A DNA stretch of 64,000 bases. Source: an uncultured Flavobacteriales bacterium. GTDB taxonomy: Bacteria; Bacteroidota; Bacteroidia; Flavobacteriales_G; Salibacteraceae. Position numbers and translations under genes: made by a program. The notes below the pieces were generated by a model. That model worked only from the letters and a program-made list of their open reading frames with translations. It ran no database searches and had not been told where the DNA came from. Shown in pieces: positions 1 through 19,298 of the stretch; the stretch's first letter is position 1; every line of letters begins with the position of its first letter. The stretch covers positions 310,001 to 374,000 of the forward strand of contig CALSRJ010000003.1 of NCBI GenBank assembly GCA_943788725.1, in the 5' to 3' direction.

Positions 1-2336
1 TTCACGCGGAGAATGTGCATGATTTTGCGTGGACGGCTGACCCAACCTATCGAATAGGGTCTGCAGAAATCGAGCTTGAAAGTGGTCATAAGGTGACCTG
101 CTATGCATTGGCCCAAGAGCCACATGCGTCGGGCTGGCAAAATGCGGCCGAGTATACCGCCAAGGTGATTGGCTTGTATTCAAAGGACATTGGAGAATAC
201 GCCTACCACAAGATGATCGTTGCAGATGCGCGCGATGGGATGGAATATCCGATGCTCACCTTAGACGGTGGAAAGGACCCAAGCTATAGAGGTCTGCTCG
301 CCCATGAGGTAGGACACAACTGGTTTTTCGGTATGGTTGGAAACAACGAAACGTATCGGGCTTCGCTGGATGAAGGCTTCACGCAGTTCCTGACTTCGTG
401 GGCCATGGTCAATTTGGAAGGAGACAGCGCTCAAGTGGGTAGTCCCTTGTTCGGATGGGATAAAGCCTTCAAAGAAATGCGCTCAAACCGCGACTTGAAT
501 GTGCATTATGGCTACTATTTCTCTGCGATCATGCGTGGTGAAAGCCCAGCTCTGAATACCCATTCTGATATGTTCGAAGGGGGGCGGGGCTATGGTCAGG
601 TGTATTCGAAGACGGGTACCATGCTTTACAACCTGCAATATGTATTGGGCGATGAGCTGTTCCTAGCCGCCTTGCAACATTATTTCTCCCAGTGGAAGTT
701 CTGTCATCCCTATTTCGAAGATTTTAGGGCATCCATCATCAACTACACCAAGGTAGACCTCAACTGGTTTTTCGATCAATGGCTGGAGTCTGAGGAGATG
801 ATTGATTATAAGCTAACCTCCTTGCGTTCTGCGGGTGAAGGAAAGTATACTATCTCGCTTGAACGCAAAGGCATGCAAATGCCCTTAGACATTCAATTGA
901 CGGATGCCGAAGGCAATGTTCATGATTATCATATTCCCAATACCTACTTCGTCAAAGAAACAGAGGCTACGGTTTTGCCGAAATGGTATGGGTGGGGCAA
1001 ATTCAATGATCGATATGAAACGGTTATTGAGCTGGATGCCGTGGTTGAGCGAGCAGAGATTGACCCCACAAAGCGATTGGCAGATGTGTACCAGCTCGAC
1101 AATTCTACGGCTACCGCGCTCAGCGTTGAATTGAATGACTTTCAGTGGGAGTACCCTACCCATGAGTATGCCATCGAATGGAACCCCATGCTCTGGTACA
1201 ATGGCTACGATGGATTAAAGCTGGGGGTGCAAGTGAGCGGTGATTATTGGAGTGTTTACCACCGCTTGGATCTGAAGATTTGGATCAATTCAGGGTTTGG
1301 GCAGCAGTTGGATGCGATCACCACTGAGGATCGTTTTCAGTTCAATCGGTTCAACTACGCCTTTTCCTACTCAGATCCTTTGCGAGAAATGGGTCGAGGT
1401 TTAAGCTATACCTGGAAGTCAAAGTGGATGGAAGGCCTGTTTGCGAATGAATTCTATTTCACCAAGCAATTTGACAACAACAAAACGGCTGTGAATTTTG
1501 GTGTCGGAGGTCTTTACCGACCATTTGATACAGACTTGAACTATTTACATTACCCCGAATTTTGGAACGCGGATCGATGGAACAACTTTACGAAGTTCAC
1601 GCTGCGTCACACCTATCGCTACCAACGAGGAAGCGAAGGCACCATCCGAGGGGAGGTGCGCAGTCCTTTTCTCGGGTCGGATTACAACTATTCTTACGTG
1701 AACCTAGAGGTCGTCAATGATAACCGATTGGCTTTTCTCAATGTTCGTACACGTGTATTTGGTCAATTTGGTCTTGGGGATGATTGGGCGCCGGAGTCGC
1801 AATTGTTTGCTGCGGGTGCAAACCCTGAGCATATGATGGATCAAGCGCTTACTCGCTCTGCAGGATTTGTTCCAACGAGTTTGTATGGTTTTGGTGGCAA
1901 CACGGGAAATTATCAAGTGGGAGGTGGTTTGGGACTTCGAGGGTACAACAACTACCTCATGCCTTCTTTCAATGGAGACAGCCTGATGCGATTTGGAAAT
2001 GCTGGACACAGCGGTGCATCATTTAGCACTGAGATTGAATTTGATGATGCCGTATCCATATTGTCGAAATGGAAGCGTATGGTGGAATTGAAGACCTATC
2101 TATTTGCGGATGCAGGGGTAATCAACATTAACCGTGCAAATGAGTCTGTAGCATGGTCCAATATCAGAATGGACGCCGGAGTTGGAGCCACCCTAGAGGT
2201 GAAAAGGTGGGGGAGGTTGTCTGGATTGAAACCGTTTAAGCTCCGATTGGATTTACCCTTGTTCTTAAATCGACCACCGGCATCAGATGAGTACTTCGCC
2301 TTTCGGTGGCTGATTGGATTTCAGCGTGCCTTCTAA
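1..2336 (+). CDS. M1 family metallopeptidase with C-terminal outer-membrane beta-barrel (5' partial)
   Basis: The reading frame is open to the left edge (codons before the track's GTG read HAEN), so the gene starts outside the window. The track start at 15 is an internal Val. The fragment carries GMEYP near residue 75 (the exopeptidase-motif position), the zinc motif HEVGH at 97-101 and the distal Glu in LDEGF about 18 residues later. It is therefore a gluzincin aminopeptidase expected to release N-terminal residues from peptides. From about residue 385 the sequence changes to alternating aromatic/polar strands, contains GGGLGLRGY (like the Omp85/BamA RGY motif) and ends in Phe, as outer-membrane barrels do. 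I infer a cell-surface or periplasmic peptidase tethered to its own barrel. The stop codon shares one base with the start of the next gene. Peptidase call strong; barrel call moderate. Confidence 0.85.
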   Translation, partial: HAENVHDFAWTADPTYRIGSAEIELESGHKVTCYALAQEPHASGWQNAAEYTAKVIGLYSKDIGEYAYHKMIVADARDGMEYPMLTLDGGKDPSYRGLLAHEVGHNWFFGMVGNNETYRASLDEGFTQFLTSWAMVNLEGDSAQVGSPLFGWDKAFKEMRSNRDLNVHYGYYFSAIMRGESPALNTHSDMFEGGRGYGQVYSKTGTMLYNLQYVLGDELFLAALQHYFSQWKFCHPYFEDFRASIINYTKVDLNWFFDQWLESEEMIDYKLTSLRSAGEGKYTISLERKGMQMPLDIQLTDAEGNVHDYHIPNTYFVKETEATVLPKWYGWGKFNDRYETVIELDAVVERAEIDPTKRLADVYQLDNSTATALSVELNDFQWEYPTHEYAIEWNPMLWYNGYDGLKLGVQVSGDYWSVYHRLDLKIWINSGFGQQLDAITTEDRFQFNRFNYAFSYSDPLREMGRGLSYTWKSKWMEGLFANEFYFTKQFDNNKTAVNFGVGGLYRPFDTDLNYLHYPEFWNADRWNNFTKFTLRHTYRYQRGSEGTIRGEVRSPFLGSDYNYSYVNLEVVNDNRLAFLNVRTRVFGQFGLGDDWAPESQLFAAGANPEHMMDQALTRSAGFVPTSLYGFGGNTGNYQVGGGLGLRGYNNYLMPSFNGDSLMRFGNAGHSGASFSTEIEFDDAVSILSKWKRMVELKTYLFADAGVININRANESVAWSNIRMDAGVGATLEVKRWGRLSGLKPFKLRLDLPLFLNRPPASDEYFAFRWLIGFQRAF

Positions 2337-3373
2337 TGGGTGCGCCGAGACTCATACTCATTGGGAGTGCTCCAAGTTCTGGAAGTACCCTCCTGGCTGA
2401 TTTACTGGACAGCACATCTTTTACGGCTTGCGGGCCTGAGTTGGAATTTTTCTGCAACCGTGCCCTTTATGATCTGGTTGCTTATAAGCGAAATCCTTCT
2501 CTGAAGAGCGAACTCTTTAGCCCGCGGACGACTTCGATTTTTCCGCGCTACGAACGCTTACATCACTACGGAACGAGCAAGGTGAGGTGGATGGAAATGA
2601 TCCAAGAGGCTCAACATCTAGAGGGACTGATTGAGCGTTTTTCCAGTAGCTTTTTGCAGTACAGAGAAAAGCCGCAAGACGGAATCGTGTTTGAAAAGAC
2701 ACCTCAAAATGTAAATGCGATCGATCGATGGATTGAATCTTCAGATCGAGCATTCATCTTTCTTGTCCGTGATCCGCTGTATGTGTTCAACAGCTTGCTG
2801 AACAGAGGTTGGGGAACCTACACGGCGTTTGCGACTTGGTTGTTGTACGCCGCTAAATGCTGGAAGTACTTGGATCACCCAAATGTGAGGGTCCTGCGAC
2901 TGGAAGATTTGGTGAAAGAACCCTTTGTGCGTGCGGCATCGCTTATTCAGTTGTACACCAAAGACCACTTGATTACTCCAGATGCACTGAGACAGGGGTT
3001 TGAACAAAACTCATATCGAAAATCAGCGTCCAAGAAATTGGATACTTGGGGCATTCAAGAAACAGCTGGTGATATTCACGATCCAAATGCGAAGGAGGTT
3101 TCTGCCGATCGAAAGGCACTATTTCAGGGACTGCTAGGAACAAAGGTCTCCGAGGAATATGCCCAACGATATGGATTGGCAGCTGTTAGTATGCTCGAAG
3201 CGTGCGAGCGCTTTGGTTACCATTATTCAGCAACTGGTGAAGCCTACATCCCTTCTCCCTCTGGAGATGAGTGGGCGCGTTTTGCGCGTAAATCATTACG
3301 GGGTATGATGGAAGGTCACGGCTCGCTGTTTGATTTTATAACCTATGCACGCGCGCTAGAACTCAGTCGATAA
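2336..3373 (+). CDS. Sulfotransferase family protein (ST1)
   Basis: A 345-residue cytoplasmic protein. The start is set at ATG 2336, which overlaps the upstream TAA by one base (TAATG). The track's GTG at 2306 would lie inside the peptidase gene. The N-terminus has a P-loop-like PAPS 5'-phosphosulfate-binding motif, GSAPSSGSTLL (about residues 10-20), and FLVRDPLYVFNSLL near residue 140 matches the 3'-phosphate-binding region of sulfotransferases. By family it would move sulfate from PAPS to a hydroxyl or amine, probably on a glycan or lipid given the neighbouring sugar genes. The acceptor cannot be read from sequence. The 3' end overlaps the convergent asparagine-synthase-like gene tail-to-tail by 11 bp. 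Confidence 0.8.
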   Translation: MGAPRLILIGSAPSSGSTLLADLLDSTSFTACGPELEFFCNRALYDLVAYKRNPSLKSELFSPRTTSIFPRYERLHHYGTSKVRWMEMIQEAQHLEGLIERFSSSFLQYREKPQDGIVFEKTPQNVNAIDRWIESSDRAFIFLVRDPLYVFNSLLNRGWGTYTAFATWLLYAAKCWKYLDHPNVRVLRLEDLVKEPFVRAASLIQLYTKDHLITPDALRQGFEQNSYRKSASKKLDTWGIQETAGDIHDPNAKEVSADRKALFQGLLGTKVSEEYAQRYGLAAVSMLEACERFGYHYSATGEAYIPSPSGDEWARFARKSLRGMMEGHGSLFDFITYARALELSR

Positions 3374-5153
3374 ATTCTTGCATCCATAGTTCGGTGAGTA
3401 CCAATTTCCAAGTCTTCTTGCCGTATTGGGCTGGATATTGAAGAACCACCTTGTCGAGGTAGTCTGCATTGAAAATACCCCTTTGTTTGAGCTGGCTGAT
3501 AGACTGTTTCGTCAGGTCACTCAGCTTATTGTCGATCCATGCATTTAAAGGGGCACCAACGCCTTTTTTGGCTTCGGTGAGTGCGGGTTGTACTACCCAC
3601 GGAGCAGCTGCCTGTTTCAATACGATTTTCCGCTTGTGACCTCTCACTTTGTGCCTAGAGGGAATGCTAAGTGCCGCATCAATGACATCGTTATCTAGAA
3701 AAGGGTACACCGGCATAACTCCTAAGTGATTCGAGAAATTCTCAAAGCGATAGAGGTGATGATTTGGACAGTTGCTGAACATGTAATGCATCAGGCCAGA
3801 GGTTGCATCTGGGAAGGGTGCTCGACTTGGATTGTATAAACGCTGTTGTATGTCGATTGAGCGATAATTGGCGTCTGTGAAAAGTGCTTTAAGTTCTTCA
3901 TCCAAGTAGCTGGCGAAAGATCTGGCGTAATATTCATCGATGGTGCTAGCCCCAGCAATTCGCTTAAACTTGTCGATGCCCTTGTGCAGATTTGGTGGCA
4001 AGAGTTTAGCTACAGGGTTCAACAAGCGCAACCACTGCCAATATTCTAAGTGTTTGAAGTAATGAAACCCACCGAAAAGTTCATCCGCGCTGAGTCCATT
4101 GATGACGTGATCATAGTTCAAATCACGCGCTATGGATGCGATGGAGTAGTATGCACCTAAAGATATTCCAGGTTGTTCGTACAGCCTCACCAGCATTTTC
4201 AGCTCCGAGGTGAAATCTTCGTACTCGAACGCCTTTATATGATGGGTGATGCCATGTTTCTTGGCCGTCAGAGAGGCTACATCATCTTCATTCATAGCGT
4301 CAAATGCTGCTCCTTTGACTTTGAAAGTGAATGCCTCTACAGATGGATCGTGATGGTGGGCAAGTGCAGTCAAATAAGCCGAGTCAACTCCTCCACTCAA
4401 TGTTGACCCAATGCGAACACCGTTGCCTACCCTTCTCTTAGTGGCTGTATTCAAGGTTTCATGCGTGAGTGCTACTGCATCCTCAAAGCGCATGTTCTCA
4501 TCGATGTTGCGCGAAGGGATTTCCCAATACTTACCCACAGACACGCTACCATCATAGAGGTTGAGAAATGCGCCTCGATCGAGAACGTGGGCGTGTTTGA
4601 AACAAGTTAGCGGTTGGTTAGGGGCTGGGTAAGCGATGTTCGTCCAGAGGCCTTCTAGATCGAGATCCTTTTGAGTAAAGAGCGATGATTTGGCTATTCC
4701 TCGTAATCCAGAACTCAGAAGTGTGGCTTTTTCAGCGTGATGATAGAATACGGTCTTTATTCCACCGCGATCTCTATACACTTGTAAGGCACCCTCTTGC
4801 TTGTTGAACTTAAATAGAGTGAATCCTCCATTTAATCTCAGAACGTCTCGGAAATCTACCTCATTTGCTTCAAAGAGAGACCGGCTCAGGATGTCGGATT
4901 GATTCGATGTTTGGTCATCGTACAATCTACCATACATGATCAACATCCAGCGGTCATCTTCTACGATGATTGGTTGTATTCGGTTGGTGATAAATGCCAG
5001 TATGCCTTCGCTTCCTCGGTTGGATAGAAGTTCGATCGTTTGAAGTGTGGATGGTTGGTCTCCCTCTAATGCGGAGGTCATTTCCTTCAGACGATCCTCG
5101 TATTGAGATGCTGGTGTGGGTTGGTCGTATAGTATGCCTGAGAATCCGATCAT
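3363..5153 (-). CDS. Asparagine-synthase-like protein lacking the glutaminase cysteine
   Basis: A 596-residue protein with asparagine synthase B layout: an N-terminal class II glutamine-amidotransferase fold (residues 1 to about 200) and a C-terminal ATP-pyrophosphatase synthetase domain with SGGVDS at 253-258. It begins MIGFSGI where family members read MCGxxGI, so the nucleophilic Cys2 is Ile. An in-frame stop lies just upstream of ATG 5153, so no alternative start restores the Cys. The synthetase half looks intact. It may use free ammonia or another amine to form an amide on a carboxylate activated by AMP. It is last in a minus-strand trio, 12 bp after the PLP decarboxylase gene. AsnB-like amidotransferases of this kind occur in polysaccharide and peptide natural-product loci. 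Free asparagine synthesis is unlikely. Substrate unknown. Confidence 0.85.
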   Translation of the reverse strand: MIGFSGILYDQPTPASQYEDRLKEMTSALEGDQPSTLQTIELLSNRGSEGILAFITNRIQPIIVEDDRWMLIMYGRLYDDQTSNQSDILSRSLFEANEVDFRDVLRLNGGFTLFKFNKQEGALQVYRDRGGIKTVFYHHAEKATLLSSGLRGIAKSSLFTQKDLDLEGLWTNIAYPAPNQPLTCFKHAHVLDRGAFLNLYDGSVSVGKYWEIPSRNIDENMRFEDAVALTHETLNTATKRRVGNGVRIGSTLSGGVDSAYLTALAHHHDPSVEAFTFKVKGAAFDAMNEDDVASLTAKKHGITHHIKAFEYEDFTSELKMLVRLYEQPGISLGAYYSIASIARDLNYDHVINGLSADELFGGFHYFKHLEYWQWLRLLNPVAKLLPPNLHKGIDKFKRIAGASTIDEYYARSFASYLDEELKALFTDANYRSIDIQQRLYNPSRAPFPDATSGLMHYMFSNCPNHHLYRFENFSNHLGVMPVYPFLDNDVIDAALSIPSRHKVRGHKRKIVLKQAAAPWVVQPALTEAKKGVGAPLNAWIDNKLSDLTKQSISQLKQRGIFNADYLDKVVLQYPAQYGKKTWKLVLTELWMQEFID

Positions 5154-5165: not shown

Positions 5166-6398
5166 TCAGCTCCAAAAGTTCAAAATATCCTCAAACGAAT
5201 CGCGGTCTCGGAGAATAGCGAGTTCGCTGTCTTCACCAATGATTTTAGGAAATGCCCGGCTGCAGTGCCTTGACCACAGAGCAAAGCTGTTGGCTCCCGT
5301 ATCTTGTATGATTAACCACTCTCCAGCCGTTGCCTTGGGCAGTTGGATATTCTTCGCGATATAATCCCCACCAAAGCACAAAGGCCCACCTACATCAGTG
5401 TTCATGAGGACTGAATTCACAGAAGGGTGCAGCAACATGTCGTGATGCCAAACACCGGGGTTGTAAGCTTCTCGGAGAAATAGGTCTGCTCCCACGTGCA
5501 CGATCAATACTTGGTGTTCCGGTTCGGTGGTTTTTACGTCGTGTACTTGGGTGGCCGTCCACGCAGCGTTTGCGTGATAGTAGCGGCCGAATTCGGTAAG
5601 CACTTCGAAGGAACCATCAAAGAGCTCTGGACATGCTTTGCGCAGCGCCTCCGCATAGGAGCTGATGTTGAAATCATCTCCCGCTTTGTACTCCGCTGGG
5701 AATCCGCCTCCTATATCAATGGTTCGAATGGTGTCTGGGGCAATCGCATTGATTTCTATCGCCAAGTCGATCACCTTTCGAATGGCATCTGCCATTCTGA
5801 TATAGTCAGCAGTTTGAGAGCTGGTGTGCACGTGCAGGCCACTCACCCGACCCGATGCAGATACCAACGTTTCAATGATTTGGGCGCGGTTTGCAATCGA
5901 CTCTCCGAATTTTGATCGGGCACCTGCAACACTCATTGACGCGTGTGCGCCTGTTTCGGTATGCGGGTTGATCCTGAGAAAAATACGTGCTTGTCGATTC
6001 AATTTCAAGAGTTCGCTCAGTTCTCGAAGGCTGTCGGCATTGATCACCAAACTGTCTACTTCGTTTGAAGCAATCATCTCTTGATGTGTCTTAGCAGGAC
6101 TATCCCATGCAATGAGAGGAGCTCCAGCACGCTGTGCGAGCAATACTTCCTCAAAAGAGGCACATTCCAATCCGAAACCCATGCCGGTAATGAAGTTCAG
6201 CACTTTGGAAAGTGGGTTGCTTTTCACTGCCACCGTATGGCGTGCAGCATTGCCAAAGGCAGAGGAGACTTGCTCGACACGGTTTTGAAGCACCGAAAAG
6301 TCGTAATAAATAAAGGAAGTATCGATTTCGTCGAGCAAGCTCGAAGCGCGGACTTTCTCGAATTGTTGGTTTATCCTATGTACGTCAACACGACTCAC
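5166..6398 (-). CDS. PLP-dependent decarboxylase, DapDC/ODC (fold type III) family
   Basis: A 410-residue alanine-racemase-fold decarboxylase. The PLP lysine is Lys59 in AVKSNPL. HVHTSSQ near 189-195 and IDIGGGFP at 227-234 bind the cofactor phosphate. RSKFGE near 161 and GGPLCFGGD near 337-345 correspond to the DapDC SKFG and C-E-S-x-D segments, with Cys341 kept but the following residues changed. It should decarboxylate an amino acid or aminoacyl-modified substrate. The altered substrate-contact motifs and the location outside any lysine operon argue against housekeeping LysA. Its start overlaps the stop of the upstream PLP gene (ATGA), so the two are translationally coupled. The closest functional analogy I can name is the exosortase-A-associated PLP decarboxylase family of EPS loci; that is an inference. 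Confidence 0.82.
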   Translation of the reverse strand: MSRVDVHRINQQFEKVRASSLLDEIDTSFIYYDFSVLQNRVEQVSSAFGNAARHTVAVKSNPLSKVLNFITGMGFGLECASFEEVLLAQRAGAPLIAWDSPAKTHQEMIASNEVDSLVINADSLRELSELLKLNRQARIFLRINPHTETGAHASMSVAGARSKFGESIANRAQIIETLVSASGRVSGLHVHTSSQTADYIRMADAIRKVIDLAIEINAIAPDTIRTIDIGGGFPAEYKAGDDFNISSYAEALRKACPELFDGSFEVLTEFGRYYHANAAWTATQVHDVKTTEPEHQVLIVHVGADLFLREAYNPGVWHHDMLLHPSVNSVLMNTDVGGPLCFGGDYIAKNIQLPKATAGEWLIIQDTGANSFALWSRHCSRAFPKIIGEDSELAILRDRDSFEDILNFWS

Positions 6399-7780
6399 TC
6401 TGAGTCATTGAGGATGATACGAAGGGTATCTAGCAGTTGGGTATCGTCTCGGAGGTCCAATTCTCGATCGATCAATTTTCTCACATTGAATGATCCCAAT
6501 GCCAATCGTAAGAATGACCCAGCCGCGTATGCAACCGGTTGGCCAATTGTTATCAATTCGTACTTGGGCATCCATTTGTGGCCTTCAAGGCAAATGCGCT
6601 TGTAAAGACTTTTCAATTCGTCATGGCTCAGGTAGGCACCATTCTTTTTTAACCTGAAGGATATGATGGACTTGTTGGTCTTATCCTGATCACTCATCAA
6701 TTCGAACACATCTGCGTGCTCTTCCATGTACGCCTGGATATGATTGTTCCATCGAGTCACCACCCGAATTACTTCGCTCTCTTTGTAGACGGATAGGGCC
6801 TCAAATTCGTAAATCGCAGCTTCCCAGCGCAAGAGAAGACCGTCGTTGCCTTGGTCTTTAAAGAAAGGTCGAAAGATGGAGTTATTTGGAAAGTCAAAGG
6901 ACGAGAATACGCGGTCAAATCCTTTGGATATTTCGGCTTTGCACGTGGAGGCCTGAATGCGCTTATTCAACTTCTCAGGTACAATCAAGGCACCGCAAAA
7001 AGGAGGCGATTGATAAAACTTAGAACCTGTGATCAGCAAGCTACAGTTCAGCGATAATAGATTTTGGATCAACTTCCGTGAAACACGCAACTGACAAATG
7101 TCCACCACCCACCGCACGTCAAGATCCTGGCATTCTTCGATGATGGAGACGTTATCCTCAATACCTGACTTGCTGCCAATCACCAGGTTGACGATTACCG
7201 TGTGACTCTCTTCATGTTCTTTGATGCAATCAATGATCTTCTTGCGGTGATCCAGAATTACGCCTTCGGTATTCCGGGCAGGAAATGGAATGTAATCAAT
7301 GTTTAAGGATGGATTCAGAGCCTGTGTTAGTTCAACATTTTCAATCTGCGTCTTCTCAGAGAAGAAGTTGCCCTTGTAAGCCATTACTGATCCTGAGCCC
7401 AATTCTTCAGGACAGGTAACAATATTGAGGATTGGCTTGGTCGGCGAAATGGTTGCCGAAAAGAGCAATGGGAAATAGCACAAATCGCTGCCGGAAGGAG
7501 CTAAATAAACTTCGAATGGTTCATTGCCTTCTTGTAATGCTGTTTTGATGCGACTCCGCAGATACTCGTATTTCATCGAGTAATCTGGATCGTTCAAAAG
7601 GTATTCGTAGAGTTCGTAGGTAGGAATCTTGGCCTCTTCTGTGATGAAGGAACATGTACAGGAGCCACGATTGAAAACCCCTCTAGACTTAGTTGGATTG
7701 ACGAAGTACTTATTCAACCCATGTTCATCCAAATCTAGGCGCTCATCCCCGCCTGACACCAATGCTACTTCGAAGGTCAT
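6395..7780 (-). CDS. Fold-type-I PLP enzyme, aminotransferase class V-like
   Basis: A 461-residue protein, first gene of the minus-strand trio. The likely PLP Schiff-base lysine is Lys254 in TGSKFYQSPP. The pyridine-nitrogen Asp would be Asp227 in WVVDICQ, and the small-residue segment APSGSDL near 94-100 would hold the cofactor phosphate. This arrangement fits the class V aminotransferase/desulfurase/decarboxylase superfamily, but the protein is longer than usual. The N-terminus has an unusual GSCTCSF segment. I cannot name a substrate. Coupling to a second PLP enzyme and an amide-forming synthetase suggests a small pathway that builds an unusual amino-acid or amine unit. The gene is divergent from the sulfotransferase gene at 7893 across a 112-bp intergenic region. 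Confidence 0.7.
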   Translation of the reverse strand: MTFEVALVSGGDERLDLDEHGLNKYFVNPTKSRGVFNRGSCTCSFITEEAKIPTYELYEYLLNDPDYSMKYEYLRSRIKTALQEGNEPFEVYLAPSGSDLCYFPLLFSATISPTKPILNIVTCPEELGSGSVMAYKGNFFSEKTQIENVELTQALNPSLNIDYIPFPARNTEGVILDHRKKIIDCIKEHEESHTVIVNLVIGSKSGIEDNVSIIEECQDLDVRWVVDICQLRVSRKLIQNLLSLNCSLLITGSKFYQSPPFCGALIVPEKLNKRIQASTCKAEISKGFDRVFSSFDFPNNSIFRPFFKDQGNDGLLLRWEAAIYEFEALSVYKESEVIRVVTRWNNHIQAYMEEHADVFELMSDQDKTNKSIISFRLKKNGAYLSHDELKSLYKRICLEGHKWMPKYELITIGQPVAYAAGSFLRLALGSFNVRKLIDRELDLRDDTQLLDTLRIILNDSE

Positions 7781-8855: not shown

Positions 8856-9814
8856 GCATTACTACGCACATAGAAAAGGGACGATACCGCACATACTTGG
8901 ATAAGGTAACGGATGCCCCCGTATTTGCCCAGCCTTGGTTTTTAGACGTGGTATGTGGAGCAGATCAATGGTCTGCAATCGTTGTGGAGAAGAAAGGTGA
9001 AGCAATCGGTGCAATGGCCTTTAGTTTTGAAAAAGCATGGGGACAGCGTGCGATTGTGAATAGAAAAATGCAGCCTTACACATGCATTTTGATCGATGTT
9101 CCTTCCAATATGAAAGGGGTAAATGCTCGTTCACGCGAAAAGGAAGTAGTCGAAGCTATTGCGGCCAACTTGCCGAATGTTGACCGGGTCAATATCAAGC
9201 TGTATCACAATGTGCAGAATTGGTTGCCTTTTTATTGGAAGGGATTTCAGCAAACAACTTTCTATACCTATGTGATTGAATCGCGAGGTAGAAGTGTAGA
9301 AGATGTCCAGATGGACTATCGGTCCTCGGTGCGGTCAATGATTAAGAAGGCACGTAAAACGTTGACGACGACCGAGGACTTGGCAGCAGATGTCTTGATT
9401 GAACAGGCCAATAAGACTTTCGCATTGAAGAATAAACGCTACCCAAATGATCCGGATATCATAAGGCTCCTCCACCGAGAGAGCAAAGAAAAAGGGGTCG
9501 GAAAATTGATGGGTGCTGTGGATGATGAGGGCAACATTCACGCAACTATGTTCCTTTTAGAAGACGAGCGAATGGTCTATTATCTTCTTGGTGCGTCTGA
9601 TCCCGAGTATCGGAATACGGGAGGCTCAAGTCTTTTACTAGATGAAGCAATTGCCTACGCAATCGGGCGCGGAAAGGCGTTTAACTTTGAGGGCAGTATG
9701 GATCAGGGAATCGAGTCTTTCTTTAGAAGCTTTGGGTCTGAACAAATGCCCTTGATGAAGTTGAGTTTGAATCGTTCTCTAGCCATGCGCCTGTATGATC
9801 TGATCAAGAGATGA
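8852..9814 (+). CDS. GNAT/FemAB-like acyl- or aminoacyltransferase
   Basis: A 320-residue protein of the two-lobed GNAT type (BioF2/CelD-like, related in fold to FemAB). The C-terminal half carries the recognisable run DEAIAYAIGRGKAFNFEGS followed by an FFRSFG segment, typical of this family in Bacteroidota polysaccharide loci. The expected activity is transfer of an acetyl, acyl or aminoacyl group to an amine. In FemAB relatives the donor is aminoacyl-tRNA; here neither donor nor acceptor can be read. It overlaps both neighbours by ATGA, so it is translationally coupled to ST2 and to the deacetylase. A role in decorating an amino sugar or attached amino acid fits the nearby PLP trio. No signal peptide, so cytoplasmic. 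Confidence 0.7.
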   Translation: MSITTHIEKGRYRTYLDKVTDAPVFAQPWFLDVVCGADQWSAIVVEKKGEAIGAMAFSFEKAWGQRAIVNRKMQPYTCILIDVPSNMKGVNARSREKEVVEAIAANLPNVDRVNIKLYHNVQNWLPFYWKGFQQTTFYTYVIESRGRSVEDVQMDYRSSVRSMIKKARKTLTTTEDLAADVLIEQANKTFALKNKRYPNDPDIIRLLHRESKEKGVGKLMGAVDDEGNIHATMFLLEDERMVYYLLGASDPEYRNTGGSSLLLDEAIAYAIGRGKAFNFEGSMDQGIESFFRSFGSEQMPLMKLSLNRSLAMRLYDLIKR

Positions 9815-11081: not shown

Positions 11082-12575
11082 ATGGGAGTAATTCGAAGAC
11101 AAAGTGCCTTTTCAAGCGTCTCATTATACGCGGGTATCGGACTCGGATTTATCCTTTCGCTTTATATCTATCCGCAATTCTTAGAGACCGAGGAGATTGG
11201 CCTGGTGCGCGTCTTAGTAGACATGGCAAAGCTCATTTCTCCCTTCTTGTTGCTGGGTGTTCCAGGCACATTTGTTCGCTATTACCCTTACTTCTCCAAT
11301 GACGATAAGGTTTTGGCATCTTTTCGATACCTCTCTCTGCTCGTGTCTGGCGTAGGGACGATTTTCGCGTTGCTCTTGTTCTATTTCTTGGAGCCGGTAT
11401 TGGTTGCGTCCTTTGCCGAAAATTCGCCACTCCTCGGTGAGTTCTTTGTTTGGCTGCCCATTTTAATTTTCCTCCTCGGTGGAGTTTCCTTATTGCGGGC
11501 TTATTACCGCTCTGATTATAACATTACCATACCGAATGTGTATGAAGTCATTGTCCTGAAATTCTTATTCATTGGCGCGGTCTTGGTGTATTTCTACATG
11601 GATCTGACGGTCGAATGGTTGGTCTACATGTACATTCTTGCGCATGCGCTGATTTTTCTGGGCTTGTTGATTACGTATGCGCGAGGCGGTCGATTGAGGT
11701 TGAACAAAGACCTCAGCTTAATCGATCCTGAGTTGCGCAAGGAGATGATACCCTACGGCCTGTTTGTCATTGCCAATATGGTCAGTGGGTCTATGATCGT
11801 GAATATTGACTCATGGATGCTGGCTTCGCTGTCTGGATTATCGGCTACGGGAATCTATGCCATAGCACTTTCTATAGGTATGGTTATCGAGCTGCCTCGG
11901 CGTTCCATTACGCAGATTGCTGTTCCGGTAATTGCGAATGCATGGAAGAATAACAACATGGGCAACATACGTGATATTTACCACAAGACCAGTTTGAACC
12001 AGCTGATTGCTGGAGGCGTGATCTTTATTCTGGTGTGGACCAACGTGGATGACCTCTTCCGGCTTATCCCCAACGGAGAGTTGTACAGCGCTGGTAAATG
12101 GGTTGTCTTCTTCATCGGTATATCGAAACTCTTCTCGATCGCTACTGGATGCAACATAGAGATTCTTCAGGTGTCTGAGCACTATCGCTATAGTTTGTGG
12201 ACCCGCATTCTCCTGATCGCCACAGCCATTGTCACCAACCTGTATTTCATTCCGAGGTATGGCATCACTGGGGCAGCAGTTGCTACCGCCATCACTTTCT
12301 TCTCCAATAACATCATACTTTTCTTGATCGTTTGGTTCAAACTTGGGCTCCAGCCATTCAAACGAACCAACCTGTATGCACTTTTATGGTTGGGGGTTAT
12401 CTACCTGATTACGGTATACTTGCCGTATCCATTCGAACTCCCCTTGGTGTTGATGGCGCTGCGAACGGTCGTTGTAGGTGTAATGTTCCTAGCGATTTTG
12501 CTGCGCTTCGACTTTTCTGAGGACCTAAGGCAATTTGTGCTTCTAGGACTGAAGAAGGCAGGACTCAGGAAGTAG
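11082..12575 (+). CDS. Oligosaccharide flippase / MOP-superfamily exporter (Wzx-like)
   Basis: A 497-residue polytopic protein with about 12-14 hydrophobic segments, opening with the VIRRQSAFSSVSLYAGIGLG segment seen in polysaccharide biosynthesis (PST/Wzx) proteins. The family flips undecaprenyl-linked oligosaccharide repeat units from the cytoplasmic to the periplasmic face of the inner membrane. It ends the plus-strand block, 2 bp after the deacetylase gene, which supports lipid-linked repeat assembly by this locus. The 3' end overlaps the convergent sulfotransferase gene tail-to-tail by 11 bp. No Wzy polymerase with clear motifs is visible, although the YfhO-like protein could fill a membrane glycosyltransfer role. 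Confidence 0.82.
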   Translation: MGVIRRQSAFSSVSLYAGIGLGFILSLYIYPQFLETEEIGLVRVLVDMAKLISPFLLLGVPGTFVRYYPYFSNDDKVLASFRYLSLLVSGVGTIFALLLFYFLEPVLVASFAENSPLLGEFFVWLPILIFLLGGVSLLRAYYRSDYNITIPNVYEVIVLKFLFIGAVLVYFYMDLTVEWLVYMYILAHALIFLGLLITYARGGRLRLNKDLSLIDPELRKEMIPYGLFVIANMVSGSMIVNIDSWMLASLSGLSATGIYAIALSIGMVIELPRRSITQIAVPVIANAWKNNNMGNIRDIYHKTSLNQLIAGGVIFILVWTNVDDLFRLIPNGELYSAGKWVVFFIGISKLFSIATGCNIEILQVSEHYRYSLWTRILLIATAIVTNLYFIPRYGITGAAVATAITFFSNNIILFLIVWFKLGLQPFKRTNLYALLWLGVIYLITVYLPYPFELPLVLMALRTVVVGVMFLAILLRFDFSEDLRQFVLLGLKKAGLRK

Positions 12576-13557
12576 GATAACCATACTCTTCCAGGTAACT
12601 ATTCAAAGCGCCATTGAGGTGTACGATCTCCTGGCCAGTAAAACCTTCCTTGTAGCGGCCGATGTGATGCGCACTCAGGTCAACTTCCAGCATATCCGCT
12701 TCCAAAGTAACTCCTACAAAAGCGCACACCTTGTCTAAAGCTTCTTGCGGAGACTGAACTAGATCTTCAAAGCGGATTTCCAGATAGCGATCAGCGTCGA
12801 TGGTTTTGCGTTGTTCTCTCCATGTTTCCATGACACCTGTATACCACGGAATGAGTTGGTCTATAGCCGTAGGCGCCCAGCGCTGTGTCTGGAGGGAACT
12901 GATCACGTCTCTAGGATCTCGAACGATGTGGAGCATCTTACCTGACGGGACTAAGGACAGCAAGTCGTGGGCCGCTAAGAGGTTGTGTGTGTTGTCTTCT
13001 TGAAAGATGGGTTTTCCTTGCACTTTTCGAATCGCATCCATGCATGCATGGATGAATCGCGCTACGATGGGCTGTAGCTCTGAGCTGGTCATCGGAGGTG
13101 CGAAGTACATCTCATTGTGCGCGATGCCTTCTTTCGAGCCAGGCCAAACGCCACGGTAGCTAAACGATCGAATGTCACGGATTAAAGCATCGATCAAGTG
13201 GTCGTACCCTGGTATCCAATTGCTCAATTCCCAACCGGCATATGCAGGTGGGGTGAAGGCTAGCCCATTTGGGTCTTTTGCCTTGGCTGCTTCAGTTTTG
13301 GCGGCCTTGCTTGCGTCTACGATGCTCAAGGATCGCAGAAAGTCCTCTAGGCGCTTGATCTGCTTGTCTGCCCTATAGGGTGACCAAAGGACGGGATAGG
13401 AGCGATAAAAATCGAGGACTCCGTCTGGGTCGGTGATAAAGCGATATTCAAAGGGAAGAGAGGCGATCGCAGCATGCCGAGACATGATCTTTTTCAAGAT
13501 GTTGGTGCCCGACCTTCCGGTTCCCGTGATGAACAGTGTATCGATCTGTTCGCGCAT
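12565..13557 (-). CDS. Sulfotransferase family protein (ST3)
   Basis: A 330-residue protein. The start is placed at ATG 13557 because it shares a base with the upstream PIG-L stop (TGATG). The track start at 13569 is a TTG inside that gene. The phosphosulfate loop ITGTGRSGTNIL lies at residues 10-21 and MLHIVRDPRDVISSL near 213 is the 3'-phosphate site, so this is a PAPS-dependent sulfotransferase. It is last in the minus-strand block with glycosyltransferase, formyltransferase and deacetylase genes, pointing to sulfation of the same glycan. Acceptor unknown. Confidence 0.82.
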   Translation of the reverse strand: MREQIDTLFITGTGRSGTNILKKIMSRHAAIASLPFEYRFITDPDGVLDFYRSYPVLWSPYRADKQIKRLEDFLRSLSIVDASKAAKTEAAKAKDPNGLAFTPPAYAGWELSNWIPGYDHLIDALIRDIRSFSYRGVWPGSKEGIAHNEMYFAPPMTSSELQPIVARFIHACMDAIRKVQGKPIFQEDNTHNLLAAHDLLSLVPSGKMLHIVRDPRDVISSLQTQRWAPTAIDQLIPWYTGVMETWREQRKTIDADRYLEIRFEDLVQSPQEALDKVCAFVGVTLEADMLEVDLSAHHIGRYKEGFTGQEIVHLNGALNSYLEEYGYPTS

Positions 13558-14204
13558 CAGATGATCCAACGGATTACTTCAAAGGCCTCCGCAAATTCTA
13601 CGTTCGCTTGAAGGCCTCGATAGTTGGCAACACCGCGGATCAATTTGTCTTTGGCATACAGTCTCTTGGATTGGGACTTGTAACACTCCATGGCCGCTAC
13701 CTTTTTTGCAACATCCGATTCATTCAGTTCGATGAAGCACTGCGAGGCGAATTGGAAATTGTTCCAAATGAATTCATACCCCAGTAAGGTGGTATTCTTA
13801 AATGCTCGCTTGGCTTCCATGCTCACGGTTCCATGGTCCTGATGAATGTCATAGCTGGATGGACAAAACACAAGGTCAGGTTTGTACTCCTTGTTCAAGC
13901 CAACCATGCTTTCTAGAATTTCTTGCCGATCTCGAGGGAAGTACCTGACTTTGAAGTCGAGAATGACCAAGTCTTCTGAAGGAATGCCTAAGGTGCTTGT
14001 GGCAGCTTTCACTTCGTGGGATAGCACATCAGATGGAAATCCTTCCGGAACCGATTCCTCGCAGGTGGAAAAAGCAACGTAAACCACTTTTTTTCCAAGT
14101 GATAGCAGTTTATGGATGGTGCCACCACAACCAAGTTCTCCGTCGTCGGTGTGCGGCGCCAGGACTAGTACGGTATCGAAGGCATTAAGCGCTGAAGTCT
14201 TCAT
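13557..14204 (-). CDS. PIG-L (LmbE-like) family deacetylase
   Basis: A 215-residue zinc-dependent N-deacetylase. The N-terminal APHTDDGELGCGG is the PHxDD metal and catalytic motif, and DIHQDHGTV near 128 supplies the remaining His ligand. Family members remove acetyl groups from GlcNAc-type residues on lipid- or nucleotide-linked intermediates. Its start overlaps the formyltransferase gene by 20 bp, so the two are tightly coupled. A plausible logic is that this enzyme exposes an amine that the formyltransferase then formylates. The order of the two steps is inference. Confidence 0.85.
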   Translation of the reverse strand: MKTSALNAFDTVLVLAPHTDDGELGCGGTIHKLLSLGKKVVYVAFSTCEESVPEGFPSDVLSHEVKAATSTLGIPSEDLVILDFKVRYFPRDRQEILESMVGLNKEYKPDLVFCPSSYDIHQDHGTVSMEAKRAFKNTTLLGYEFIWNNFQFASQCFIELNESDVAKKVAAMECYKSQSKRLYAKDKLIRGVANYRGLQANVEFAEAFEVIRWII

Positions 14205-15498
14205 AAGCGGTGTCGAATTCGTTGCAAACTTCTCGAAAACCCACCATGCGTAGGTTCGATGTTAAGTTCTCTTGTGACAATATTCGGAAAGTTTCGTCGG
14301 CTATCTCCGCTTCCATGCGGAGAGTTACGTAGATGGGTATGTTGATGGTGCGACTTTCGACGACCGCTTGTTGGATTATTTCGATCGCACTATCGGCGGT
14401 TTTCATGATGATATGAGGAACCTCGAGAAGACCATTGTGGTAGCGATAAGGCTGAGTATCCACAATATTTAGCGAGGCTACATCTCTGAATTCTTTGCTA
14501 GAAACGGCAACAACGCTTTTGCGTTGAAAGGCCTCCACGATCGGGAAGTACTCCTCTAGATCGAGCGGAGAGCCAAGCATAACTCCCTGATCTGTTGCAT
14601 CGCCAATGCTATTCCTAAGCTCCTTTCGCTGCAAGGCATCGCCGCCCGTGAGGGTGGTCTTGAAACGAGGTGGGTTTGGAATGCTAACCACAGAGAGGGG
14701 AGACTCGTCCGCTGAAAGTACATCCCCTTTGGGAGTAAGCACGCAAAGGCGCACTCCTGGAGCGTGCACGGCTTGTGGGGGGAGACGATGCCCGCGAAAA
14801 GGTGGAAAGTCCATCGCTCGCATGAAGCGTTCCTTTTGTTCAGGGAGCCAATCCCATTGAAGCTGACCTCCGAAGGGTTCGCCTCGCAATTGATAGGTAG
14901 CCTCAGTTTCAGATTGTTTTTTGAGCTTCAGAAGCCCATTGTCAAAATGAGGTAGCGCCCGTTCAAACATCCGTTTGCCGGCAAACATCAATTTAATGTA
15001 CAGCGTATAGGCGTTGTCTTCGGTTTCGATGATCACCTTTTCCTGGTCTGCAATCGGGCCGTTGTCAACGCCCGTCTCCATTTTGTGCAGGGTGATGCCG
15101 CAGTAGGGCTCTCCTTTGATGATGGACCAAGGAATAGGCCGTGATCCGCGATTTTTTGGGAGGTAGGCGGTATGGAAATTGAAGATTCCTAGCTTTGGTA
15201 TTCCCAGTACCTCTTCTTTGAACAATTCACTCCAAAAGCAGGAGAAAATCACATCTAATTGCAATGCATTCAATAGCTCCAATGAGGCTTTCGAATTGAC
15301 TTTCATTCCGAAATGAACCGGAAGGCCGTGCGATTGAGCCAAAGACGCCAGAGAGCGATGTCCGAGATCTTCATGCCAAATGCGCATGCCTGGTTCGTCA
15401 TCTCTGCTGAAGACACCGAGTACTTCATGCCCTTGTTCTAGCAAGGTGTCTAATAGAATACAACTCAATTCCTTGCTGCCTATGACAACCGTTCTCAT
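14185..15498 (-). CDS. Formyltransferase family protein (sugar N-formyltransferase-like) with C-terminal extension
   Basis: A 437-residue protein. The first 200 residues follow the methionyl-tRNA/sugar formyltransferase fold: FNFHTAYLP supplies the catalytic Asn-x-His and METGVDNGPI the catalytic Asp. The segment around MRAMDFPPFRGHRLPP resembles the small C-terminal domain of sugar formyltransferases. The expected reaction uses N10-formyl-tetrahydrofolate to formylate an amino-sugar amine. A further 170 or so residues at the C-terminus match nothing I recognise, so the protein is longer than usual. The start overlaps the GT4 stop by ATGA. Housekeeping Fmt is unlikely because of the glycan context and the extension. 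Confidence 0.78.
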   Translation of the reverse strand: MRTVVIGSKELSCILLDTLLEQGHEVLGVFSRDDEPGMRIWHEDLGHRSLASLAQSHGLPVHFGMKVNSKASLELLNALQLDVIFSCFWSELFKEEVLGIPKLGIFNFHTAYLPKNRGSRPIPWSIIKGEPYCGITLHKMETGVDNGPIADQEKVIIETEDNAYTLYIKLMFAGKRMFERALPHFDNGLLKLKKQSETEATYQLRGEPFGGQLQWDWLPEQKERFMRAMDFPPFRGHRLPPQAVHAPGVRLCVLTPKGDVLSADESPLSVVSIPNPPRFKTTLTGGDALQRKELRNSIGDATDQGVMLGSPLDLEEYFPIVEAFQRKSVVAVSSKEFRDVASLNIVDTQPYRYHNGLLEVPHIIMKTADSAIEIIQQAVVESRTINIPIYVTLRMEAEIADETFRILSQENLTSNLRMVGFREVCNEFDTAYEDFSA

Positions 15499-16793
15499 GG
15501 AGTAATGCGATTGAGGAGGGACGCAAGGACGGATGTGCTTCCCTTGCGGCTGAATTGTTTGAACTTGTCATTGCCTGTGACCATTGGTGATGGGTGGGTT
15601 TGGTATTCCTTGAAGTAACGAACCAACCAATCTTTTATTCGATCTGTATCGGCGTAGTCGAGCATCGGATCTTTACCACACTCCAGAAGAAGATCCGCGG
15701 CATTACCATCTTTTGGACCGATGCTGAGTATGGGTCTGCGCGATGCGAGGTATTCGAATAGTTTTCCCGTCAGGATGCTCTTGTTGCCACTGTCTTGTGG
15801 AATGGGCAAGAGCAAGGCCTGAGAAGCCATCATTCGTTCGATGGCTTCTTTGTGTGGAACAAAGGGTAAAAGCTCGACCATACCCATGATTCCCGCCTCC
15901 GAGAGACCCTGCTTCACTTCATCAGCGATGTTGCCGGTAATCCTGAGTTTGAAGTTTGACTTGAAGGCTTCGTTTTCATTGGCAAGGGAAGCGATTGCTT
16001 GCCAAAGGCCAGTTACGTTTTGAAAGGCCTTCAGATTCCCTACATAGGAGAGCGTGAATTCCTTGTATGGAGCAGGGTTTAGGTGTAAAAGATCCTCTTC
16101 ATCGTATCCATTAGGAATGAAAACAATCTCCCTTGCACGGGCTTCAAATTCTGCCTTTAAACCAGGAGATGCCACGACCATCGCGTTTGCTTCGGTAGCG
16201 ACCATGTCTTCCAGGTCTTGATCCCGTTGTCGGGTACTTTCCGTTCGGTTTAGGAAGGCGTTGTAATAGATATTGGTCCATGGATCACGGAAGTCTGCAA
16301 TCCATGGAATGCTATTTTCCCGATGCAGTCGCTCGCCCACCAAATGCGTACTGTGGGGTGGGCCAGTAGTAATGATGACTGCCGGTTGTTCGACTTTGAT
16401 GATGCGGAGTGCTTCGGGAAGCGAATAGACGTTCCATCCTACGCGAGCGTCAGGCACAAAGAGGTTTGCCCTTACATAGTTGGAGAAGCGCGCAAAGAAA
16501 CCCTGCTTGCCTTTGATGTTTCCCATGCCCACCTCAATGCTCTTTCCTTTTTTACCTCTTAAGGCGTTGTAAATTGCAAAAGGTTCAAGTGTAGCCGTCT
16601 TGTGCACTTTCAAATCCGAAGGAATATCCTCGGTGAGGCTTTCGTCCTGCGAGGGATAACTTCCATTACGAACGGTGACGATGATGGGCTCCCAGCCTTC
16701 GTCTGGTAAGTACTTGCAGAACTTCAACCAACGTTGTACGCCGGGTCCGGAACCCGGTGGCCAATAGTACGTCAGTATCAGTGCTTTTTTCAA
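15495..16793 (-). CDS. Glycosyltransferase family 4 (GT-B fold)
   Basis: A 432-residue cytoplasmic or membrane-associated glycosyltransferase. It opens with ALILTYYWPPGSGPGVQRW, the common start of this GT4 group in Bacteroidota surface-polysaccharide loci. The C-terminal donor-binding half has TGKLFEYLASRRPILSIG, where the conserved E of the E-x7-E region sits. It should transfer a nucleotide-activated sugar to a lipid-linked acceptor. It lies 6 bp after the YfhO-like gene and overlaps the formyltransferase start, so all five genes of this block probably form one transcript. Sugar specificity cannot be judged. Confidence 0.85.
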   Translation of the reverse strand: MKKALILTYYWPPGSGPGVQRWLKFCKYLPDEGWEPIIVTVRNGSYPSQDESLTEDIPSDLKVHKTATLEPFAIYNALRGKKGKSIEVGMGNIKGKQGFFARFSNYVRANLFVPDARVGWNVYSLPEALRIIKVEQPAVIITTGPPHSTHLVGERLHRENSIPWIADFRDPWTNIYYNAFLNRTESTRQRDQDLEDMVATEANAMVVASPGLKAEFEARAREIVFIPNGYDEEDLLHLNPAPYKEFTLSYVGNLKAFQNVTGLWQAIASLANENEAFKSNFKLRITGNIADEVKQGLSEAGIMGMVELLPFVPHKEAIERMMASQALLLPIPQDSGNKSILTGKLFEYLASRRPILSIGPKDGNAADLLLECGKDPMLDYADTDRIKDWLVRYFKEYQTHPSPMVTGNDKFKQFSRKGSTSVLASLLNRITP

Positions 16794-16799: not shown

Positions 16800-19298
16800 T
16801 CAGTCCTCGCGTTGTTTCTTAAGGTGAAAATAGATCAGTCCGCCGGCGAACAATAGGAACAATACGGATCCGGCCAATGATACGTTCATACCCAGCCTGA
16901 AGGAGCTTGGGTTAAATCGCATTTCTACCACATGCTCCCCTGCAGGAATCTTGATGGCCCGCAGCACATAGTTGACGCGTTCAATTTCCGCTGGCGCACC
17001 GTCGATGGTAGCTTCCCAGCCTTCTCCGTAATAGACTTCCGAAAAGACACCGAGACCATCTTGGTCATTTTTGGAGGTGTACTTCAAGTACTTAGGAGAC
17101 ATATCGGTCAATTGAATCGCGGCATTGGCTGACTTGCCGAAGTTGTAGCTGTACAATGAGGCTTCGTACGCTGCACTTACGATGGCAGTGCTATTGGGAT
17201 CGAATTGAGCCAGAGCAGCCATCTCTTCGTCGGCCGTGCCCACTTTTTGGATGGTTTCCACAAACCAAGCATTTCCGCAGGCTGAGCGATTCAATACCGC
17301 CCCACCTGGGTTATTAGCCTGGACGATGAAGTACTTCGTGTTCAACATGTTGTAAACTGGCATTTGCTGAGCAACTGCTGGGTTCATGATCACTTGATCA
17401 CCCTGCTGCATCAATCCACCATTTAACTTTTGAAGTTGTGCGTTTAATTCGTTTTCAATCAAGTCTTGGTATCGCTGCAATTTGGCGGCGTGATGCCCAC
17501 CCACGTTTTCGTGATGATAGCAGGTCAGGCCATCAGTCCAAGGACTGCGTGTTACATTGATGACACGGTAATGCGGGTCAGGATCTTGCAGAATGGCTTG
17601 ATCGGCGAGAGAGGGTCGGAATTGCTGCTCAAAGTCGCGTTGACTTACAAAGTCATCGTTGTTGAGGTAGCGCTTACTTACGTGCCACATGTCTGCCAAG
17701 TACACGAGGCCGATGATCATTATGACGGCAGTTAGTTTCATCTTGCCCTTATCGTGATACCAGATCACAAACGCCGTCACGGCCATCACCAATGTGCTGA
17801 TGAACCAGTCCGACAAATACCTAGATTTTCGGTCTGCAAGCAAGGCTTCGTAGATGGCGTCTATGCCCCATGGCGAGTTCTTCCCTTGATAACTAGCATC
17901 CTTTGAACCTACCCAATCGTTGAGCAATCCGTAGAGGAAGAGCAAGAGCATCAATCCACCCGCAATGTAGACGGCGTATTTCAAAGCTTTGTTCAATTCA
18001 GATTTGTCTACTTCTCCGCTGAGGATGCGATGCAGTCCTAGTATCCCCATCAGAGGAATGGCCAATCCGGCAATGGCAAGGGCCATGGAAGGCGTTCTAA
18101 ACTTGTTGTAAAGCGGGAAGTAGTCGAATAAAAATCCGGTTACCATCTCAAAATGCCGTCCCCATGAAATTACCAGCGACATGACAATGATGCTCAATAG
18201 CCAAGCACGCGTAGGGCCATTTAGGAGGAAAATGGAGAGGATGAAAAGGAAAATGAAACCCGCTCCTAAATAAACCGTTCCTAGCAAGAAGGGTTGATCT
18301 CCGACATACATCGGGCCTTGAGCCAGGATGCCTTCTTTCTGCTGTTTGTTCAGCTGAAAGCTCTTCAGTGCTTCTTCCACATTTCCACCTTCAGGCAGTG
18401 GCTCACTGGTCGCGCCACCCATGAAGGAAGGAACTACCAAGGTCATGGTTTCTAAGGGGCCATAAGACCATCGCATGGCGTAATCTCGATCCAGACCGCC
18501 CTTGTCTTTGGCGTCTTTGCTGCTCAGTTCTGATTTCCCACCTCGAATCGTTTCTTGGCTGTGCTCATACGCATTGTAGAGTTTGGCGGTGTTTGGCAAT
18601 AAGCCGCCGATGGCTGCCAAGGCCAATATTCCGACTGCCTTTGCGAAATCAGGCAAGGTCTTTTCCTTGATTGCTTGAATCAGGTATACTATGCCTACCA
18701 CAATGGAAATCAACAAAAAGTAATACAGGATTTGGAAGTGGTTTCCATTGATCATTAGACCTACAAATACCAAGGTCATCAATGAACCTATGAGTCGTTT
18801 TCGCCTTAGCGCCAAAACGACTCCGCCAACTGCAGGGGCCATGTATCCGATCGAGACAACCTTCGTCACGTGACCGGCTACCAACGATACAATGAGGTTC
18901 GTGGAAATTCCGTAGGTGAGCGATGCGGCTAGTGCGAGCCATGGATTGACCCCCATGGCTACAAGCAGGATGAAGAAGCCGAGCATGGTGACGAACAAGA
19001 CATTCGCCGTGCGTGGGAAGGTTCTGCGCACCACTTTGTCCAGCATGAGCGCGACGTTGGTGCTGTACTCTGTTCCGATATGAAACGCTGTCATTCCACT
19101 GAAAACACGCGTAGTCCAAAGCGGCTCTTCTCCGTTGGCATCACGGTACTCACGAATCTCTTTGGCCTGGGCGATGTTCTTAACGATGTCGTCTTGAACG
19201 AGTCGTTTGCCCTGCAATACAGGTGAACAATAGAGGATGGATGTCAACAGAATGACAACAACCGAGATGATGTGCGGAGAATATTTTTTCCAATCCAT
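16800..19298 (-). CDS. YfhO-family polytopic membrane protein (GT-C-like)
   Basis: An 832-residue inner-membrane protein with about 12 or more hydrophobic helices in the first 550 residues and a C-terminal periplasmic domain ending in the run GEHVVEMRFNPSSFRLGM plus one last helix. This layout is that of the YfhO family, thought to be GT-C-type membrane glycosyltransferases working with polyprenyl-linked sugars. It is first in the minus-strand glycan block, 6 bp before the GT4 gene, and could load a sugar onto a chain or carrier in the periplasm. The start at ATG 19298 follows a 78-bp gap from DUF4834. Family call is good; exact reaction unknown. Confidence 0.75.
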   Translation of the reverse strand: MDWKKYSPHIISVVVILLTSILYCSPVLQGKRLVQDDIVKNIAQAKEIREYRDANGEEPLWTTRVFSGMTAFHIGTEYSTNVALMLDKVVRRTFPRTANVLFVTMLGFFILLVAMGVNPWLALAASLTYGISTNLIVSLVAGHVTKVVSIGYMAPAVGGVVLALRRKRLIGSLMTLVFVGLMINGNHFQILYYFLLISIVVGIVYLIQAIKEKTLPDFAKAVGILALAAIGGLLPNTAKLYNAYEHSQETIRGGKSELSSKDAKDKGGLDRDYAMRWSYGPLETMTLVVPSFMGGATSEPLPEGGNVEEALKSFQLNKQQKEGILAQGPMYVGDQPFLLGTVYLGAGFIFLFILSIFLLNGPTRAWLLSIIVMSLVISWGRHFEMVTGFLFDYFPLYNKFRTPSMALAIAGLAIPLMGILGLHRILSGEVDKSELNKALKYAVYIAGGLMLLLFLYGLLNDWVGSKDASYQGKNSPWGIDAIYEALLADRKSRYLSDWFISTLVMAVTAFVIWYHDKGKMKLTAVIMIIGLVYLADMWHVSKRYLNNDDFVSQRDFEQQFRPSLADQAILQDPDPHYRVINVTRSPWTDGLTCYHHENVGGHHAAKLQRYQDLIENELNAQLQKLNGGLMQQGDQVIMNPAVAQQMPVYNMLNTKYFIVQANNPGGAVLNRSACGNAWFVETIQKVGTADEEMAALAQFDPNSTAIVSAAYEASLYSYNFGKSANAAIQLTDMSPKYLKYTSKNDQDGLGVFSEVYYGEGWEATIDGAPAEIERVNYVLRAIKIPAGEHVVEMRFNPSSFRLGMNVSLAGSVLFLLFAGGLIYFHLKKQRED

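Follow-up and report, generated by a model that had tools for sequence, protein, structure and literature searches.

Organization of the locus

The window analysed here is a stretch of 64,000 nucleotides (contig C3:310001-374000) in the 2.9 Mb genome of an uncultured Flavobacteriales bacterium. Positions 2336-19298 hold 13 adjacent ORFs, which we letter A to M; as an earlier note on this DNA had described, neighbours within a block overlap or are separated by tiny gaps. To their left lies an M1-peptidase-like gene (15-2336, plus strand), a flank that our genus mapping finds kept across the genus, and beyond M lies the conserved right flank, carB (19634-22453). Elsewhere in the window, an ORF at 36510-36980 resembles an IS200/REP-type transposase when its sequence is read by eye.

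Gene A (2336-3373, plus strand) encodes a sulfotransferase, ST1, whose orthologues were found solely where an AsnB-like protein lacking the glutaminase cysteine adjoins the D–C pair. The next three genes are on the minus strand: B (3363-5153), an AsnB-like protein (Asn_synthase) that retains the SGGVDS ATP-pyrophosphatase motif and has Ile in place of the glutaminase Cys2 (MIGFSG); C (5166-6398), a LysA-like fold-III PLP decarboxylase of the Orn/DAP/Arg decarboxylase family, paralogous to the true LysA; and D (6395-7780), which overlaps the start of C and encodes an unnamed protein that we predict to be a fold-type-I (class-V-like) PLP enzyme with Lys254 as its Schiff-base lysine. Four plus-strand genes follow, encoding a second sulfotransferase, ST2 (E, 7893-8855), a GNAT/FemAB-like acyltransferase that is a VimA-like paralogue (F, 8852-9814), a VimE-like sugar deacetylase paralogue (G, 9811-11079) and a Wzx-type flippase (H, 11082-12575).

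The remaining five genes, all on the minus strand, form a core that is conserved in the genus. They encode a third sulfotransferase, ST3 (I, 12565-13569), a PIG-L (BshB-like) deacetylase (J, 13557-14204), a sugar N-formyltransferase with an ArnA/WbkC-like N-terminal domain and an additional C-terminal domain (K, 14185-15498), a GT4-like glycosyltransferase (L, 15495-16793) and a YfhO-like membrane glycosyltransferase (M, 16800-19298). Besides the flippase, M is the sole multi-spanning membrane protein of the locus, in which no Wzy family match was obtained and no O-antigen ligase identified.

The three sulfotransferases named in the earlier note are borne out, with A, E and I all matching Sulfotransfer_3 (7.9e-11, 7.5e-16 and 1.9e-24, respectively). 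They have diverged from one another, giving either no BLAST match or 23-24% identity. As for the two deacetylases that had been proposed, J is a PIG-L protein, whereas G is a deacetylase only by weak similarity (54.9 bits to the VimE model NF053580, which has a cut-off of 440).

Variation of the locus across the genus

Twelve genomes of one genus of uncultured Flavobacteriales were mapped with profiles built in this analysis. The gene order is M1 peptidase, variable genes, D (with or without C), variable genes, flippase, ST3, PIG-L deacetylase, formyltransferase, GT4, YfhO and carB. Of the 11 genomes in which a contig spans the core from ST3 to YfhO, 10 have all of it. All 13 genus members searched possess D in an otherwise changing cassette: at the locus, 8 of the 12 mapped members have C, 3 have AsnB and 2 the VimA and VimE pair, and in other members the centre consists of NeuB, cytidylyltransferase, hexapeptide acetyltransferase and DegT genes. 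Overall, the flanks are conserved and the centre is swapped in 11-12 relatives. Conserved ends with an exchanged centre are typical of O-antigen and capsule loci, and this is a lineage-specific, cassette-swapped surface-glycan locus of the O-antigen or anionic-polysaccharide type. As a glycan locus it is ordinary.

The N-terminal domain of K matches the ArnA/WbkC N-formyltransferases (2bln, E 1.7e-24, 33% identity), and its N107, H109 and D145 are invariant, in agreement with the formyltransferase proposed earlier. Since K neighbours the PIG-L-type deacetylase J, it is a fair deduction that the two together exchange an acetyl for a formyl group on an amino sugar. Formation of the sulfate donor PAPS requires APS kinase, and an APS kinase gene is present in the genome. 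Thus, the conserved flanks with a swapped centre, the APS kinase and the ArnA/WbkC fold of K all support the earlier proposal of a sulfated, N-formylated surface glycan.

The PLP enzyme D and its partner decarboxylase

D has no match in Pfam or NCBIfam, and PDB sequence searches, both with D itself and with a D profile, returned nothing useful. A structure model (pLDDT 88.6, built with 26 aligned sequences) gave 961 PDB structure matches at E<=0.001, including 3f0h (Foldseek, 5.1e-14) and PhnW (TMt 0.72). With 10-15% identity, D lies near class-V aminotransferases, AEP transaminase and cysteine desulfurases in its predicted fold, and Lys254, Asp227 and Arg425 are invariant in the 26 sequences. 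On the strength of this model, D is predicted to be a fold-type-I PLP enzyme that binds PLP via Lys254 and Asp227. A role as cysteine desulfurase was considered and set aside: SufS and IscS are among the fold matches, but D has a different sequence around Lys254 (TGSKF), and no conserved cysteine was seen by eye at the expected C-terminal loop.

C scores 196 bits with the LysA equivalog model, below the cut-off of 298, and the true LysA of the same genome, on contig C1, scores 386 bits. Over 76 aligned sequences C keeps the catalytic Lys59, His191, Arg309 and Cys341. Compared with the genome's own LysA, Phe342 (75/76) takes the place of the glutamate that follows the cysteine, and Asn370 (75/76) that of the GAY tyrosine. 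In known LysA structures this glutamate contacts the distal amine of DAP and, because it is replaced here, the substrate of C probably lacks a distal amine.

In a scan covering a single genome of each species, 346 confirmed relatives of D were found, and the best 80 of these, which lean towards close relatives, were analysed. In 63 (profile search) to 64 (tblastn) of these 80 loci, C is the gene immediately downstream of D, in the same orientation. The two genes overlap or are at most 90 bp apart in 63/80, the commonest overlap being 4 bp. D–C is thus a constant unit, of which AsnB and the sulfotransferases are occasional partners; most D–C pairs occur without sulfotransferases and without B. 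The pair lies in sugar-nucleotide loci in Saprospiraceae, among UDP-sugar dehydrogenase, DegT and CapD-like genes, and elsewhere some pairs adjoin housekeeping genes, such as a helicase (locus L061) or, in Cryomorphaceae, MBL-rhodanese and TauE genes. Given such neighbours, and given that B and sulfotransferases are missing from most pairs, the amine may not be specific to glycans. The Cryomorphaceae neighbours had raised the possibility of a role in sulfur metabolism, which we left aside when these flanks proved not to be retained in Lishizhenia-labelled MAGs, where the block of TseH-like gene, D and C alone persists.

Several variants of the pair are recorded here. In 27/69 loci (e.g. L113:8916-9953), the gene directly upstream of D–C encodes a TseH-like/DUF6695 protein of PF25218, a family that takes its name from a T6SS effector. 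In Crocinitomicaceae-type loci (L089, L091, L095-L097, L100, L146), a VimA-like protein and a PurT-like gene replace C after D. Remote D homologues in L065, L066 and L067 (26-27% identity) have no adjacent C and belong to ORFs of greater length (690 and 523 aa); two of them are extended at the N-terminus. Pairs also occur in MAGs labelled as a cyanobacterium and as Acidimicrobiales (L105, L125), possibly mis-binned Bacteroidota contigs, and a Calditrichota MAG (L117) carries AsnB–D–C.

The AsnB-like protein B and the sulfotransferase ST1

The N-terminus of B reads MIGFSG, against MCG in glutamine-dependent enzymes (an AsnB on locus L046, for comparison, starts MCG), whilst SGGVDS is present. 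Since Cys2 is absent, B should not be a glutamine-dependent amidotransferase. Its matches to lasso and ikarugamycin cyclase models are weak. Ligases with an AsnB fold and no such cysteine are known, namely beta-lactam synthetase, carbapenam synthetase and the lasso cyclases.

Profile searches of the best 80 of the 346 D loci found 8 AsnB-superfamily proteins, five AsnB-like proteins close to D–C having been added by this type of search. All 8 lie within 1.2 kb of D–C, six of them within 100 bp, and none has Cys2 (0/8). The relatives in L092, L117, L123, L127 and L139 share only 15-20% identity with B, and in four the PP-loop is degenerate; they may therefore be separate recruitments.

Orthologues of ST1 occur in four of the loci, each with a Cys-less AsnB: two in near relatives (L078, L079), one in another family of the order (L090) and one in Saprospiraceae (L123), where ST1 (37.6% identity) is placed between C and AsnB. 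Beyond the near relatives, sulfotransferases are found in 11 of 69 loci and AsnB in 6. The earlier note had paired a PLP/AsnB trio with the sulfotransferases. The D–C part of this trio is constant, but AsnB joins it in just 8 of the 80 loci; the association with sulfotransferases holds for a specific minority module, A–B–C–D, which recurs, and not for D–C in general. Sulfotransferases accompany a minority of the homologous loci, which by the note's own criterion largely refutes the trio as a glycan-specific unit.

The F–G pair, type IX secretion and exosortases

F matches Acetyltransf_6 (3.2e-10) and FemAB (7.3e-6). A better VimE than G (149.8 bits, also under the cut-off of 440), with a FemAB-like neighbour, is encoded on C3 at ∼219-221 kb (L158:11965-14209), beside radC and upp and away from the Wbp-like cluster. 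F and G are ∼25% identical to this second pair over the aligned parts (for F, 25% over 162 aa). F–G is a divergent second pair in the VimA–VimE arrangement, and it resembles the VimA–VimE of the T9SS linking-sugar pathway more than it does the exosortase-A set.

The linking sugar that anchors T9SS cargo in P. gingivalis is proposed to be deacetylated by VimE and to receive a serine from VimA; the sugar needs Wbp, VimE and VimA, and WbpS amidates a uronate to a uronamide (PMC7468200). VimA of T. forsythia is proposed to add glycine instead, and the link between exosortase-system FemAB proteins and VimA has already been made (PMC7468200). The present genome encodes ∼100 proteins with T9SS tails, as well as C25 peptidases of the PorU type. 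At ∼78-89 kb of contig C3 (L172:2-11317), ORFs recognized by eye as GldKLMN-like genes precede a sugar-nucleotide cluster on the opposite strand, which has a DegT aminotransferase, an acetyltransferase and two UDP-sugar dehydrogenases. These are candidate Wbp genes for a di-N-acetyl uronic acid, among which WbpB was not identified. One of the dehydrogenases is split into ORFs 5995-6405 and 6407-7297 of L172.

Exosortase-A EPS loci combine a PLP decarboxylase, AsnB-like and FemAB-like proteins, a deacetylase and glycosyltransferases. The corresponding models detect the present genes far below their cut-offs: TIGR03099 (decarboxylase) gives 135.8 bits against 478 and TIGR03108 (amidotransferase) 128.6 against 817. 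The acyl-CoA/AMP ligase model TIGR03098 has no match among the 13 proteins at E<=0.01, and no exosortase was found in the locus. The earlier statement that no exosortase is present is true of the window but not of the genome, which has an exosortase X on contig C1 at ∼906 kb (192.7 bits, cut-off 170). This gene (L161:18113-18769) and that of an XrtX-associated membrane protein (below cut-off, 17665-18126) border a second glycan locus, in which several sulfotransferases are encoded; this genome with T9SS thus also has an exosortase. Literature searches on combinations of exosortase, FemAB, AsnB and sulfotransferase, and on a Cys-less AsnB with uronamide, returned nothing.

Proposed pathway and alternatives

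We propose that in the core J would deacetylate, K N-formylate and I sulfate the glycan, with L and M as transferases and H flipping the product. The exchangeable centre would here consist of the VimE/VimA-like pair and the four-gene module A–B–C–D. G would strip an N-acetyl group and F put an amino acid on the freed amine. D would prepare an amino-acid substrate, which C would decarboxylate to an amine; B would adenylate a carboxylate, for example that of a uronic acid, and couple it to this amine without ammonia from glutamine, and A would sulfate the product or its sugar. What the sequences show is the gene content and architecture of the locus, the coupling of D to C, the altered pocket of C, the loss of Cys2 and the recurrence of A–B–C–D; all substrates, the amine made, its ligation and its link to the glycan are put forward as proposals. 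The most economical reading of A–B–C–D is that an amine is made and then joined to a carboxylate of the glycan as an amide, independently of glutamine. The reading as a whole, a cassette-swapped glycan locus with a D–C amine, ligation by B and sulfation by ST1, we regard as having about an even chance of being correct. The new element is the module of D–C amine and Cys-less ligase, the product of which we infer; it is the unusual part of an otherwise ordinary locus. A bolder form of this reading seems to us unlikely. In it, the pair and this ligase would be a hitherto undescribed module that makes an amine open to sulfation and attaches it by amide ligation to bacterial surface glycans; an N-substituted uronamide would result where WbpS-type enzymes give a plain one, and in some hosts the module could supply the amine on which T9SS cargo is coupled.

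The main alternative is that the amine pathway of D–C is a general one, serving the envelope or small molecules (a lipid, for instance, or a free polyamine-like compound), and that the pair sits in the glycan locus of this genus by position alone, with B and the sulfotransferases as independent glycan genes. The occurrence of D–C without glycan genes in many Flavobacteriales, beside the TseH-like gene (27/69) or a helicase, argues for it, as does the presence of D in 13/13 genus members amid an otherwise changing cassette. The tight placement of AsnB-like proteins at D–C in scattered lineages, all without Cys2, speaks against it, and so does the position of the Saprospiraceae pairs among UDP-sugar dehydrogenase, DegT and CapD-like genes. 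We consider this alternative somewhat doubtful.

It is also conceivable that the locus makes a second, A-LPS-like glycan for anchoring T9SS cargo, with F–G and the D–C-derived group forming an alternative linking sugar to which PorU would couple cargo. The likeness of F–G to VimA–VimE fits this, together with the T9SS tails, the PorU-type C25 peptidases, the Wbp-like set beside gldKLMN and the dependence of the P. gingivalis linking sugar on Wbp, VimE and VimA, with WbpS required for its uronamide (PMC7468200). However, a better VimE–VimA pair lies elsewhere (149.8 versus 54.9 bits), and VimA and VimE are at the locus in 2/12 genus members, whereas T9SS is expected in all, which makes this reading quite improbable. 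Least probable, in our estimation very much so, is the version of the earlier note, an exosortase-A-related route in which PLP decarboxylase, AsnB amidotransferase and FemAB form one unit. The decarboxylase, AsnB-like, FemAB-like and deacetylase genes do occur together here, and TIGR03099 and TIGR03108 are detectable, but the shortfall of both scores, the lack of a TIGR03098-type ligase, the missing Cys2 of B and the co-occurrence of these genes in a minority of homologous loci all count against it.

The analysis singles out a family of 346 D relatives that is without a sequence match in Pfam, NCBIfam or the PDB and has a decarboxylase as its constant partner, and also AsnB-fold proteins without the glutaminase nucleophile that are repeatedly associated with D–C. 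The proposed amine and amide pathway is a concrete hypothesis on how marine Bacteroidota might make new glycan amides, with which the T9SS linking-sugar pathway can be compared.

Comparison with known systems

The flippase and the variable content between conserved flanks are shared with Wzx/Wzy polysaccharide loci. ArnA and WbkC are 27-34% identical to the N-terminal domain of K and have the N-H-D residues in common with it, but K has an extra C-terminal domain of ∼200 aa without an assigned fold. C shares with LysA and the BtrK-type decarboxylases a fold-III PLP decarboxylase architecture with catalytic lysine and cysteine. It differs from LysA in its distal pocket (CF not CE, GAN not GAY), and the genome has a separate, true LysA.

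Like beta-lactam and carbapenam synthetases and lasso cyclases, B has an Asn-synthetase ATP site without a working glutaminase; unlike in those systems, no peptide or beta-lactam genes were seen, and B adjoins D–C and a sulfotransferase in a glycan locus. With the XrtA/PEP-CTERM EPS loci (TIGR03099, TIGR03098, TIGR03108, TIGR03019) the locus has a PLP decarboxylase, AsnB-like and FemAB-like proteins, a deacetylase and glycosyltransferases in common, but the models are far under cut-off or absent, there is no AMP-ligase and no exosortase, and the unnamed D is found instead. The Wbp/Vim pathway of P. gingivalis and T. forsythia is matched by adjacent VimA-like and VimE-like proteins and an AsnB-family protein, in a host with T9SS and with Wbp-like genes elsewhere. 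Here, in contrast, F–G are remote paralogues under the VimE cut-off, B is without the glutaminase cysteine, and D–C, three sulfotransferases and an N-formyltransferase are additional.
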